From the NCBI GenBank assembly GCA_018826295.1, contig JAHJZX010000017.1:62001-126000 (forward strand): a stretch of 64,000 bases of DNA, read 5' to 3'. The notes below the pieces were generated by a model. It did not search any database. It was given only the letters and a program-made list of their open reading frames with translations, and was not told the origin of the DNA. The position numbers and the translations under genes were made by a program. The DNA is from Gammaproteobacteria bacterium (GTDB taxonomy: Bacteria > Pseudomonadota > Gammaproteobacteria > Enterobacterales > Alteromonadaceae). Below are positions 31,541 to 35,170 of the stretch, piece by piece. Position 1 is the stretch's first letter, and every line of letters starts with the position of its first letter.

Positions 31541-31568
31541 TTGCAATTTGCACAGTGCTGGCTAGAAT
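31541..31568 (+). promoter_or_regulatory. Promoter of Spot 42 RNA
   Basis: TTGCAA (31541-31546) and TAGAAT (31563-31568) are spaced by 16 bases and place the start at about 31576, exactly where the Spot 42 sequence begins. I could not identify a good CRP site nearby, although CRP represses spf in E. coli. Confidence 0.65.
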
Positions 31569-31575
31569 CTGAGTT

Positions 31576-31685
31576 GTAGGGTACAGAGGTAAGATGTTCT
31601 ATCTTTCGCTGTCGAAGCAATTTGCTTCAGCATATGAAAGTAGGCTTATTTAGCCGCCCCGCTGCTTGCAGCGGGGCGTTTTTTT
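31576..31685 (+). ncRNA. spf: Spot 42 small RNA
   Basis: The RNA starts GTAGGGTACAGAGGTAAGAT and continues GTTCTATCTTT, identical to the 5' end of E. coli Spot 42 including its unstructured base-pairing regions. The 3' part TTTAGCCGCCCC plus the terminator stem CCCCGCTGC-TT-GCAGCGGGG (31657-31676) with a T run is also conserved. The middle differs: a local hairpin (GCTG..AAGC-aattt-GCTT-CAGC, about 31608-31631) replaces the enterobacterial segment. Spot 42 works with Hfq to repress secondary carbon and redox genes when glucose is present. Its place just after polA and before engB is the standard one. Length about 110 nt. Confidence 0.95.
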
Positions 31686-31916: not shown

Positions 31917-32549
31917 TTAAAGCTGGCTGTCGGCAGTAAGTTCAGTGGCACCAAACCATTGATCCAGGGTTTGCTCCAGCTCGGGTAGCCCAAGTTTGCT
32001 TAACGAACTAAAAGCTTGTACCTGAATATCTCCCATAAAAGCCAGGCTTGCTTCGCGAACGTCCAGCACTATTTTTTTGCGCGCGCCTGGTCCAAGCTTA
32101 TCTGCCTTAGTCAGCAAAATAAGCACCGATAGTTTACTTTCGACCGCCCAATGGATCAGATCCTGATCTAAATCTTTCAGCGGGTGACGGATATCCATCA
32201 ACACCACCAGACCTTTAAGGCTACTGCGTTTCATCAGGTATTCTGCCAGCGATTTTTGCCATTTCTCTTTAACAGTCAATGGTACTTTGGCAAAGCCGTA
32301 ACCAGGCAAGTCAATTAGCCTGCGTGCATTATCCAGGCTAAAAGTGTTGATTAGTTGAGTGCGCCCAGGTGTTTTACTGGTGCGCGCTAAACTATTTTGC
32401 CGGGTTAACGTATTCAGAGCACTGGATTTACCGGCGTTTGATCTGCCGGCAAAAGCCACTTCTATACCTTCATCGGCAGGTAGCGCCCGAATATCCGGCG
32501 CACTGGTGAGGAATGTGGTGCTTTGATAATTTATTTTTGACTTGTACAC
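31917..32549 (-). CDS. engB: Ribosome-biogenesis GTPase EngB (YihA/YsxC)
   Basis: A 210-residue essential GTPase needed for late large-subunit assembly and linked to cell division. G-motifs: G1 GRSNAGKS near residue 36, G2/TPGRT near 60, G3 [11 protein letters not shown] near 79, G4 TKADKL near 148 and G5 FSSL near 183. Length is typical. It is convergent with the small RNA unit and ends only seven bases from its terminator. The position after polA-spf is conserved. Confidence 0.95.
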
Positions 32550-32731: not shown

Positions 32732-33358
32732 ATGATGAAAATGCTATTTCCACTGACGCTGCTATTCGGTTTTATCGGAACAGCTCAGGCGTTTGACGGT
32801 GATGCCGAAGCAGGTAAAGCGAAGTCGGCGGTATGCGCAGCATGCCACAGTGCTGACGGTAATAGTGCTGTTGATATGTATCCCAAAATCGCAGGCCAGC
32901 ACGCGCCTTACATTTATAAACAGCTGCGCGATTATAAAGGCGGCATGGAAAGCGGCGGTAAGCAAGGCCGTAGCAACAACATCATGTTCGGTATGGTGGC
33001 GGCGTTATCTGACCAGGATATGAAAGATTTAGCAGCCTATTTTTCATCACAGAAAATGAAGCCGGGTACTACCGCTGAAAATGTAATTGAGCGCGGTGGA
33101 CAGTTGTATCGTGGTGGTGATGCTGAGCGCGGAATCGCAGCCTGTATTGCTTGTCATGGTCCGCGTGGCAATGGCTCTGATTTGAGTGGTTTTCCAAAAA
33201 TTTCTTTTCAGCATGCTAACTACCTGAAAACGACGCTGCAGGAGTTTCGTGAGGGTAAGCGTGCGAATGACTTAAACGGTATGATGCAGGATATTGCCAG
33301 AAAACTGACCGATGAGGACATAGAAACCTTATCGCAATATCTGGGTGGCTTGCACTAA
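32732..33358 (+). CDS. Dihaem cytochrome c4
   Basis: A 208-residue periplasmic dihaem cytochrome. Signal peptide about 1-20 (ends AQAF). There are two homologous haem domains, with CAACHS near residue 35 and CIACHG near residue 137. Each is followed by PKIAGQHAPYIYKQL / PKISFQHANYLKTTL and a methionine ligand (NNIMFGMV, NDLNGMMQ). Cytochrome c4 passes electrons from the bc1 complex to cbb3-type or other oxidases. It is inserted between engB and the CsrB/C-type RNA, which are adjacent in E. coli, and ends in its own terminator. Confidence 0.92.
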   Translation: MMKMLFPLTLLFGFIGTAQAFDGDAEAGKAKSAVCAACHSADGNSAVDMYPKIAGQHAPYIYKQLRDYKGGMESGGKQGRSNNIMFGMVAALSDQDMKDLAAYFSSQKMKPGTTAENVIERGGQLYRGGDAERGIAACIACHGPRGNGSDLSGFPKISFQHANYLKTTLQEFREGKRANDLNGMMQDIARKLTDEDIETLSQYLGGLH

Positions 33359-33424: not shown

Positions 33425-33442
33425 TGTGAGATATATCTCACA
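33425..33442. promoter_or_regulatory. UvrY/GacA-type operator upstream of the CsrB/C-family RNA
   Basis: TGTGAGATATATCTCACA is a perfect 18-bp palindrome that fits the GacA/UvrY consensus TGTAAG-N6-CTTACA in length and spacing (TGTGAG-N6-CTCACA). It lies roughly 170 bases before the inferred RNA start; distant upstream sites of this kind activate csrB and csrC in enterobacteria. It is not a CRP site, because the TGTGA/TCACA halves are eight rather than six bases apart. Confidence 0.7.
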
Positions 33443-33575
33443 CTGGCTGTAAGAAAATAGCCATTTTAGCAAATTCATTGAACTTTTTTTACTGCGGTTT
33501 TTTCGTTAACTATCTGAAAATAATCAAATAATATTAATCGCATTTAACTGCCTTAGGTTTTTTTTCTGCAGTGTC

Positions 33576-33603
33576 TTGCCATCTGAACAGATTGGAGTAG
33601 ATT
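33576..33603 (+). promoter_or_regulatory. Probable promoter of the CsrB/C-family RNA
   Basis: TTGCCA (33576-33581) and TAGATT (33598-33603) spaced by 16 bases would start transcription near 33610. The boxes are moderate matches, as expected for an activator-dependent promoter. Confidence 0.45.
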
Positions 33604-33609
33604 ACAAGG

Positions 33610-33917
33610 CAGTTACACTTAGTAACCAATAATAACAGGGACTAGCGGCAAGGAAGTGTCAGTACCCAGTACAACACAGTGCGTGGTACCTTTTTTTTGC
33701 ATCGGGATGATGTGCAGCGTTAAAGTGCGCTCAGGGATGGATACGAAAGCATCAGGAAGATCGTAAACAAGAAAATTGCCAGGAAGGCACATAACATAAA
33801 TGGAACACGAAAAAACAGGGCGTTGAAGCAACATCAGGACGATGAAAGCGAATGAGAGTGGTGTCCACGTGACACAGGCATACCCAGGGCGATAAGCTTA
33901 TCTTATCGCCCTTTTCT
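33610..33917 (+). ncRNA. csrB/csrC: CsrB/CsrC-family CsrA-sequestering RNA
   Basis: A non-coding stretch of about 300 bases ending in a perfect ten-pair terminator. It contains at least nine GGA motifs (near 33639, 33652, 33705, 33735, 33739, 33755, 33782, 33802, 33837). Several sit in short hairpin loops, the CsrA-binding geometry: CATC-AGGAC-GATG at 33832-33844, GCATC-GGGAT-GATGTGC near 33700, and GCATCAGGAAGATCG near 33749. The context engB - (this RNA) - yihI is that of E. coli csrC, and a UvrY-type box lies upstream. It should bind and titrate the global translational regulator CsrA. A 71-codon open frame on the opposite strand is not credible. The 5' end is inferred from the promoter. 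The exact csrB versus csrC assignment is not decided. Confidence 0.82.
33887..33917 (+). terminator. Terminator of the CsrB/C-family RNA
   Basis: GGGCGATAAG-cttat-CTTATCGCCC, a perfect ten-pair stem, followed by TTTTCTTTTTC. Confidence 0.93.
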
Positions 33918-33935: not shown

Positions 33936-34583
33936 ATGTCCGCAGTCGTTTGCCCGCTATGTCATCACCGGCACAGCCTGTTGTTTTGCCAGGATCTGCG
34001 CCGCCACTATTTTCAGTGCCAGCAGTGTCAGCTTGTCTTTGCTGACCGGACAACCTTGCTCAGCAGCGATCAAGAGTTGGCACAATACCAATTGCATCAG
34101 AACGATTTGGCCGACCAGGGCTATCGCCAGTTTTTGCAACGGCTGGCAACGCCGTTATTAGGCATGCTGCCAGATAAAGAGCTCGAAGGGTTGGATTTTG
34201 GTTGTGGCCCGGGACCCTTGTTAGCAAAGATGCTGACAGAGGCCGGCCATAATATGGCGGTTTGGGACCCGTTTTTTGCTAAAGACGACACAGCTTTGCT
34301 GCGGCAGTACGACTTTATTTGTTGTAGCGAAGCGATTGAACATTTCGTCAATCCGGCGCAGGAGTGGTCGTTATGGCTCAGGCTGCTTAAAGCAGACGGG
34401 ATCCTGGCCATTATGACCAAGCGTTATACCAATGCTGCCGCCTTTGCCAACTGGCACTACAAGAATGATCCGACACATGTCAGTTTCTTCGCTGAAGACA
34501 CTTTTGCCTATTTAGCCCGCCGAGATGGCTTTGTGCTGCAGGTTGTCGACAAAGATGTCGTGTTACTGCAACGAAACCATTAG
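33936..34583 (+). CDS. Class I SAM-dependent methyltransferase with N-terminal zinc ribbon
   Basis: A 215-residue protein. The N-terminus carries two CxxC pairs (CPLC near residue 6, CQQC near 28), a likely zinc ribbon. A Rossmann-fold methyltransferase domain follows, with SAM motif I LDFGCGPGPLL near residue 86, the acidic motif II WDPFF near 111, and CSEAIEHFVNPAQEW (methyltransferase type 11/23 style) near 130. The substrate is unknown; zinc-ribbon methyltransferases of this type modify small molecules or RNA. The start lies only about 20 bases after the CsrB/C terminator, so it needs read-through or its own start. It is followed by yihI after 53 bases. Confidence 0.8.
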   Translation: MSAVVCPLCHHRHSLLFCQDLRRHYFQCQQCQLVFADRTTLLSSDQELAQYQLHQNDLADQGYRQFLQRLATPLLGMLPDKELEGLDFGCGPGPLLAKMLTEAGHNMAVWDPFFAKDDTALLRQYDFICCSEAIEHFVNPAQEWSLWLRLLKADGILAIMTKRYTNAAAFANWHYKNDPTHVSFFAEDTFAYLARRDGFVLQVVDKDVVLLQRNH

Positions 34584-34636: not shown

Positions 34637-35170
34637 ATGACTCGTCAGAAAAAAACGCGCTCAGCCGGTTCTAATGGCCAGCGCCACTTACCCGCACAGG
34701 AAATACGTAAAAGCCGGGAGCCAAAAGAAGAAACCAAGAAAAAGGGTGCCGGCCTGAAGTCTGGTAGCCGCAATAATGTCGCGCAGGTAAAACCAGCCAG
34801 CGCAGACAATGCCGCTAACAAAGACAAGCGCATTGGCAGTAAAAAGCCGATTGCTTTAGTACCCGTTACAGAGCAGCCTTTAGTTGTCAGCCAACCCAAG
34901 GCCAGCCTGGCTAAAGTTAAAGCGGAAGTTATTGCGCCGGAACAGGAATTGGCACTAATTGAAAACGACAGCTACTTGCAACAATTGTTGGAGCGGGTTG
35001 AGCAAAATGAAATTCTGACTGGCAAAGATGCGAAATATTTCAATGCCAAGACGGCTCGGTTAGAACAACTATTGCAACAACTTGGCTTAACTGAACAGGA
35101 AGCGGAAGTTGATCCGTTGGCTGAGTTTGAAAGTAAAGACTGGCGTAAAGATCTGCTCGGCGAAGACTGA
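34637..35170 (+). CDS. yihI: Der GTPase-activating protein YihI
   Basis: A 177-residue protein that stimulates the GTPase Der (EngA) and slows 50S assembly. The highly basic, disordered N-terminal half (MTRQKKTRSAGSNG..., KSREPKEETKKKGAG) and the acidic helical C-terminal half (ELALIENDSYLQQLLERVEQNE split over residues about 108-130, and NAKTARLEQLLQQLGL) are the family pattern, ending DWRKDLLGED. ATG 34637 gives the conserved MTRQKK start; an in-frame ATG at 34610 is less likely. Confidence 0.92.
   Translation: MTRQKKTRSAGSNGQRHLPAQEIRKSREPKEETKKKGAGLKSGSRNNVAQVKPASADNAANKDKRIGSKKPIALVPVTEQPLVVSQPKASLAKVKAEVIAPEQELALIENDSYLQQLLERVEQNEILTGKDAKYFNAKTARLEQLLQQLGLTEQEAEVDPLAEFESKDWRKDLLGED

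Follow-up and report, generated by a model that had tools for sequence, protein, structure and literature searches.

A predicted CsrC-type small RNA gene at the csrC position in Rheinheimera, probably orthologous to Pf3 of Pseudoalteromonas

The closest described relatives of the element reported here are the small RNAs (sRNAs) CsrB and CsrC of Escherichia coli and Pf3 of Pseudoalteromonas fuliginea. In E. coli MG1655, the gene order is polA-spf-yihA-csrC-yihI; CsrC carries many GGA motifs and ends in a terminator before the next gene, and a UvrY palindrome lies upstream (PMC4682653). The published UvrY consensus is TGTAAGN6CTTACA, and the E. coli csrB palindrome, TGTGAGAGATCTCTTACA, has its center at -183/-182, with TGTAGGAGA 5 bp further on (PMC4682653). 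Pf3 has nine GGAs and TAA/AAT-rich alignments, has a promoter that is active in E. coli, binds CsrA in a gel shift, ranks third among the top peaks of RNA immunoprecipitation sequencing (RIP-seq) and affects glycogen in E. coli (PMC11882849). Homologs outside its genus are reported there only from Thalassotalea and, oddly, eukaryotes, and the main text of that paper does not mention yihI (PMC11882849). Here we analyzed a 64,000-nucleotide stretch of an Alteromonadaceae genome (the window; contig JAHJZX010000017.1) and found that positions 33610-33917 of its forward strand very probably hold an unannotated, predicted sRNA gene of the CsrB/CsrC type, a csrC ortholog by position and probably an ortholog of Pf3. 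Like E. coli csrC, it lies between yihA (engB) and yihI, has many GGAs and a terminator before the next gene, and is preceded by a UvrY-type palindrome. Because the Rfam models fail here and the GGA count is weak by itself, the case is carried by comparison.

Locus and upstream palindrome

The elements of the locus are as follows.

31917..32549, reverse strand: engB/yihA (TIGR03598, 232.6 bits), the left flank, shared with E. coli csrC
32732..33358, forward strand: diheme cytochrome c gene (Pfam Cytochrom_C, two stretches), directly upstream, in relatives too
33425..33442, forward strand: UvrY/GacA-type 18-bp palindrome TGTGAGATATATCTCACA, center at about -176 from the predicted start
33448..33456, forward strand: extra half-site TGTAAGAAA, 5 bp after the palindrome
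33576..33603, forward strand: sigma-70-like promoter TTGCCA-16-TAGATT, a sequence match conserved in the alignment of relatives
33610..33917, forward strand: candidate CsrC-type sRNA gene, predicted transcript about 308 nt
33936..34583, forward strand: methyltransferase gene (PF13489), the downstream neighbor
34637..35170, forward strand: yihI (NF003560, 123 bits; PF04220), the right flank, shared with E. coli csrC

In the window, engB/yihA and yihI enclose the cytochrome c gene (c4-like by our reading of its sequence), the sRNA stretch and the methyltransferase gene, whose start codon lies 18 bases past the predicted RNA end. The claim in the original prediction that this interval is where E. 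coli keeps csrC was borne out; unlike in E. coli, the interval also holds the cytochrome c and methyltransferase genes. Further to the left, between polA and engB, we observed a Spot 42 (spf) homolog at 31566-31685 (forward strand); at 60.7 bits it falls short of the gathering score of 80, so default Rfam thresholds miss spf here, as they do csrC.

The palindrome TGTGAGATATATCTCACA fits the UvrY consensus if R/Y is allowed at one position per half. It is perfectly symmetric, whereas that of E. coli csrC has weaker symmetry (PMC4682653), and TGTAAGAAA follows it at the spacing that TGTAGGAGA has in E. coli csrB. A search of the whole 4.57-Mb genome with TGTRAGN6CTYACA returned three places (reversed control, zero). 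Two of them are identical 18-mers, one before the genome's CsrB (contig C20) and the other before the csrC-type gene. The third perfect site, at G000:C48:60955-60972 (L256), has a different core. CRP sites have a spacing of six. A CRP site was set aside as an explanation of the palindrome, as the spacing in TGTGA-N8-TCACA does not match that of CRP and the sequence fits the UvrY consensus.

We then scored the box, out of 12, across relatives. All 16 genus CsrB loci checked, out of 30 genus genomes with a CsrB match, carry it at 12/12. Among 29 genus csrC loci, 19 score 12, six score 11, three score 10 and one scores 8, and the palindrome is joined by a TGT at the 5-bp spacing in 20. In contrast, TGT stands exactly 5 bp after the palindrome in none of the 16 CsrB loci, seven of which have GTAAG there. 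The DNA search itself gave a short secondary match beside CsrB, covering the box, in 19 genus genomes; a 20th (G006) has such a secondary match but no CsrB match for comparison. In the wider set, a box of 11 or 12 precedes 13 of 14 Rheinheimera loci and 17 of the 33 Pseudoalteromonas loci with enough upstream DNA. The box, together with UvrY and BarA homologs in the genome, is consistent with control by BarA-UvrY (GacS-GacA).

Anatomy and conservation of the predicted RNA

Within the predicted transcript, we distinguished six helices and two further elements.

33612..33626, forward strand: 5' hairpin GTTAC-N5-GTAAC (helix 1), both-side (compensatory) changes in three of five pairs
33699..33713, forward strand: hairpin with GGA in its loop (helix 2), 100% of alignment cells paired, both-side changes in two of five pairs
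33717..33730, forward strand: hairpin between GGA sites (helix 3), both-side changes in three of five pairs; the innermost pair is U-U, unpaired, in the window
33751..33761, forward strand: short hairpin ATC-AGGAA-GAT with GGA in its loop (helix 4), within the most widely conserved core
33778..33788, forward strand: hairpin GCC-AGGAA-GGC, read from the sequence; 46% of relatives share its GGA at the aligned position
33832..33844, forward strand: hairpin CATC-AGGAC-GATG (helix 5), paired in 84.2% of cells, with the outermost pair lost in 12 of 28 relatives and the GGA identical in all 28
33853..33875, forward strand: non-GGA element, hairpin GTGTC-CACGT-GACAC with a 5' lead, placed after the last GGA hairpin and before the terminator
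33886..33917, forward strand: intrinsic terminator (helix 6), 100% of cells paired, 11 pairs at 33886-33912 followed by T's

The promoter-like site puts the predicted start near 33610, with which the covariation of the 5' hairpin agrees; such sites are expected by chance (mean of 1.2 in shuffles). At the sequence level, this site and the intrinsic terminator frame a candidate stand-alone gene. The at least nine GGAs that had been claimed were confirmed as nine, starting at 33639, 33652, 33705, 33735, 33739, 33755, 33782, 33802 and 33837 and thus spanning about 200 bases. At six of these, both G's are predicted to be mostly unpaired (at least 0.78), the exceptions being 33639, 33739 and 33802. 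Several GGAs stand in hairpin loops, and the example given for this in the original prediction, CATC-AGGAC-GATG, is present as described. The proposed terminator, too, was found, with 11 pairs rather than ten.

We searched 30 other genomes of the genus, and each has a match to the region, some over short parts only. This search gave 30 loci, the window's own included (the match in G023 yielded no locus), of which 29 entered alignment A1; L023, which has no methyltransferase match beside it, was dropped. In A1, identity at the window's GGA triplets averages 73% of relatives; for triplets in general, terminator excluded, the figure is 38% (resampling value 0.00085, uncorrected for relatedness). 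Five of the nine sites are identical in at least 96% of relatives and one in 82%, and three are poorly kept. Across the 29 loci, the six helices have standard pairs in 97.3% of 955 cells, and 12 of 33 pairs show changes on both sides. None of 500 shuffles equaled the helices on four of five measures, the covariation score included; on the fifth, the number of further pair types, 299 of the shuffles did. Controls slid along the alignment fell far below the named helices in the covariation test.

Orthologs in other genera, Pf3, and a conserved non-GGA hairpin

To follow the gene across genera, we built R1, a covariance model of the RNA core from 28 loci of the genus (those of A1 except L024, which was left out as divergent). 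In its own genome, R1 has one match below E 1, the csrC-type locus (E 6.9e-26); the next is at 1.01. It matches 46 of 118 genomes of the family, in 26 of 52 genera, at E ≤0.01. Loci were extracted for the best family matches only; among the 16 from outside the genus, YihI lies in the flank of 13, DUF2489 alone in one, and neither in two. One of these two, L172, has 19 GGAs in the stretch given and a perfect box, and by its sequence it looks like CsrB.

A core RNA pattern, searched against the genomes of 84,980 species, occurs at 78 places. These comprise 36 in Pseudoalteromonas, 14 in Rheinheimera or the same genus, 13 in Colwellia-like genomes and five in Thalassotalea; two each in Paraglaciecola, Bowmanella and Aestuariibacter; and one each in Alkalimonas, Shewanella gelidimarina, an Alteromonadaceae record and a record labeled Endozoicomonas. 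Since the pattern was written from sequences of these lineages, part of its taxonomic range follows from its design; the neighbors do not. An expected neighbor (engB/cytochrome c or methyltransferase/yihI) lies on at least one side at 76 of the 78 places and on both sides at 49, and yihI is downstream at 66. The two places without neighbors, L199 and L216, are near the 3' ends of their stretches.

At the level of the order, 110 genomes have YihI, and for 90 of them, in addition to the window, we examined the DNA upstream. A patch of at least 11 GGAs per 250 nt occurs upstream of yihI in 27 of these 91 stretches, some possibly inside genes, and several families have none. R1 was run over 47 of the 90, plus L062 and L001; the stretches were picked mostly for GGA-rich patches and are therefore not a neutral sample. 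One family, f15 (L122, L127, L132, L133 and L137), has 8-10 GGAs per 250 nt upstream of yihI, and R1 matches four of its five stretches (L122, L132, L133 and L137). These may be further-diverged csrC genes.

In Pseudoalteromonas genomes, too, this core RNA has cytochrome c and methyltransferase or yihI as neighbors. We counted nine GGAs in eight of ten Pseudoalteromonas loci, ten in that of P. luteoviolacea and eight in that of P. piscicida; the P. atlantica locus (nine GGAs) ends before the terminator, and that of P. piscicida is cut off on the upstream side. The count varies with the span chosen: in a fixed 300-nt span at 32 loci, 16 have nine GGAs, 11 have ten, four have eleven and one has eight. 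The loci also contain AAT-rich runs, like those mentioned for Pf3. Locus and GGA counts, which fit in part, suggest that Pf3, considered here through its locus tags, is probably the syntenic csrC-type gene of Pseudoalteromonas.

The element before the terminator carries no GGA. Of the 29 genus loci, 23 have the exact 10-mer of its lead, GAGAAGTGTC, the window carrying a variant, and in the wider set it occurs at 51 of 76 loci; there is no copy in the 592,461 other bases of those loci and none on the other strand. Among the wider loci, it is found in 34 of 34 from Pseudoalteromonas with room for it, 12 of 14 from Rheinheimera, all five from Bowmanella, Aestuariibacter and the Alteromonadaceae record, and none of the other 23. 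The looser hairpin pattern GTGTC...GACAC, for which there is no chance control, fits all 29 loci of the genus and 55 of the 76 in the wider set. In E. coli CsrB, decay by RNase E begins in the segment that follows the last CsrA site and precedes the terminator, a part that is unstructured there (PMC5027483). As the hairpin occupies the same place, a role in turnover is our first guess. It is conceivable, although we would not expect it, that this branch of CsrC is a two-part RNA, with CsrA-binding GGA loops and, directly before the terminator, a conserved GAGAAGUGUC hairpin that has another job, such as RNase E/CsrD-type decay or target pairing.

A rival reading makes the RNA a conserved, UvrY-controlled sRNA whose main mode of action is base pairing, by way of the GAGAAGUGUC hairpin region or of further conserved parts, and for which binding of CsrA is secondary. 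The conserved element itself speaks for it, as does the fact that just six of the nine GGA sites are well conserved. However, the best conserved core is itself built on GGA loops, all Colwellia-like and Thalassotalea loci searched lack the GAGAAGTGTC element and yet retain the GGA core, and the probable ortholog Pf3 binds CsrA by both gel shift and RIP-seq (PMC11882849). We therefore consider this reading improbable.

The csrC reading, its rivals, and the Csr system of the genome

Even less probable is that the stretch is an extended 5' leader of the methyltransferase gene, regulated by CsrA in cis. The RNA end is close enough to the start codon (18 bases) that read-through would place the GGAs in a leader. 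However, the terminator is paired in every cell of the 29 loci, the RNA is kept where the methyltransferase gene is missing before yihI (e.g., L159, L162 and L164), and it is also kept in the Colwellia-like and Thalassotalea loci, which have no methyltransferase match.

Several observations weigh against a csrC-type gene. Nine GGAs are few for the class, E. coli CsrB having 22 and CsrC 14 (PMC11882849). Their enrichment over shuffles (mean 5.9) is slight: of 1000 dinucleotide shuffles, 74 have at least nine, as do 998 of 5000 mononucleotide shuffles. Likewise, single-sequence folding is weakly better than shuffles (z -1.94). Of the nine sites, the first (33639) is predicted to be paired, and those at 33739, 33782 and 33802 are poorly conserved. 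The box falls below 11/12 at four of the 29 genus csrC loci, in one case to 8, and reaches at least 11 in none of the 13 Colwellia-like and five Thalassotalea loci. R1, scanned directly on the genome's CsrB, scores 20.8 bits (E 0.0064) and so partly recognizes Csr RNAs in general, rather than being specific to the csrC-type gene. On E. coli csrC it scores 12.2 bits (E 0.48); since this similarity is not significant, orthology to the E. coli gene rests on position and architecture. Finally, neither Rfam CsrB (RF00018) nor CsrC (RF00084) matches 33610-33917 at gathering or relaxed thresholds as a CsrB/CsrC RNA; at the relaxed threshold the terminator alone resembles CsrC (10.1 bits, E 5.4).

A significant covariance match had been predicted, and its absence named beforehand as refutation; that prediction failed. 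We do not count this as a refutation because the CsrB model leaves the genus's own CsrB below its cut-off and the CsrC model exceeds its cut-off in none of 60 relatives. RF00018 gives a subthreshold CsrB match in 30 of 31 genus genomes (the window's own included), none over the cut-off. RF00084 matches weakly in nine of the 60 relatives, and its weak matches in the window's own genome lie away from the locus (contig C6, terminator part only).

GGA counting was likewise rejected as stand-alone proof, given the 74 of 1000 dinucleotide shuffles. The motif ANGGA occurs five times against 1.95 in shuffles (reached in 31 of 1000 dinucleotide and 368 of 5000 mononucleotide shuffles), and the region is the densest GGA stretch of its size on both strands of the window, with 10 in the best 308-nt frame (33593, forward strand) and nine in each of the next three. 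The modest GGA excess and a 71-residue reverse open reading frame (ORF) might favor intergenic DNA that is GGA-rich by chance, or a protein gene on the reverse strand. Both are nevertheless next to excluded by conservation, synteny across many genera and covariation, the last of which already contradicts a chance origin. No Pfam family matches the ORF (33619-33834), and its single NCBIfam match (E 0.18) reaches 11.5 bits, below the cut-off of 100. In L003, L004, L005, L008 and L009, its similarity is split into pieces in different frames. A stop occurs in every frame in 26 of 28 relatives, a weak count because one stop may be the ORF's own. We rejected the ORF as a gene on its broken frames in near relatives and the lack of a family match over the cut-off, with the reservation that in L007 a run of 69 residues stays in a single frame (42% identity).

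The genome also encodes the expected partners of a CsrC-type RNA. It has one CsrA (PF02599, 89.6 bits), a UvrY homolog (62% identity) beside uvrC and a BarA homolog (36% identity) beside rlmD, both placed as in E. coli. The best match to E. coli CsrD is 26% identical over residues 197-635, and its flank showed no match to mreB or mreC. A separate CsrB lies at G000:C20:4274-4467 (L001; RF00018, 38.7 bits against a 71-bit cut-off). Like the csrC-type gene, it has many GGAs and the identical upstream palindrome; unlike it, it occupies another locus and has 20 GGAs from box to terminator. We found no prior description of CsrB in Rheinheimera, in a literature search that left most subscription journals outside its scope, so that the absence proves little.

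Genus-wide conservation, covarying GGA hairpins, a UvrY-type box shared with CsrB and the neighbors of E. coli csrC thus support the original proposal of a Csr titration RNA at this position. We infer transcription, UvrY control, CsrA binding and titration for the csrC-type RNA. The sensor BarA would phosphorylate UvrY, which would bind the palindrome at 33425-33442 and activate the promoter near 33600. The resulting RNA of about 308 nt would present several GGA loops, to which CsrA dimers would bind and so be held off mRNAs. The separate CsrB, behind its identical box, would share the titration task.

If this is correct, Rheinheimera gains a second, so far unannotated Csr sRNA, and csrC turns out to be retained at this position in many Alteromonadales-type genera in which the Rfam model fails to detect it. 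Pf3, reported almost without bacterial relatives outside Pseudoalteromonas, probably becomes an ordinary csrC ortholog. The conserved non-GGA hairpin draws attention to a so far unstudied portion of such Csr RNAs, and the UvrY box common to both genes makes coregulation of the csrC-type gene with CsrB directly testable.
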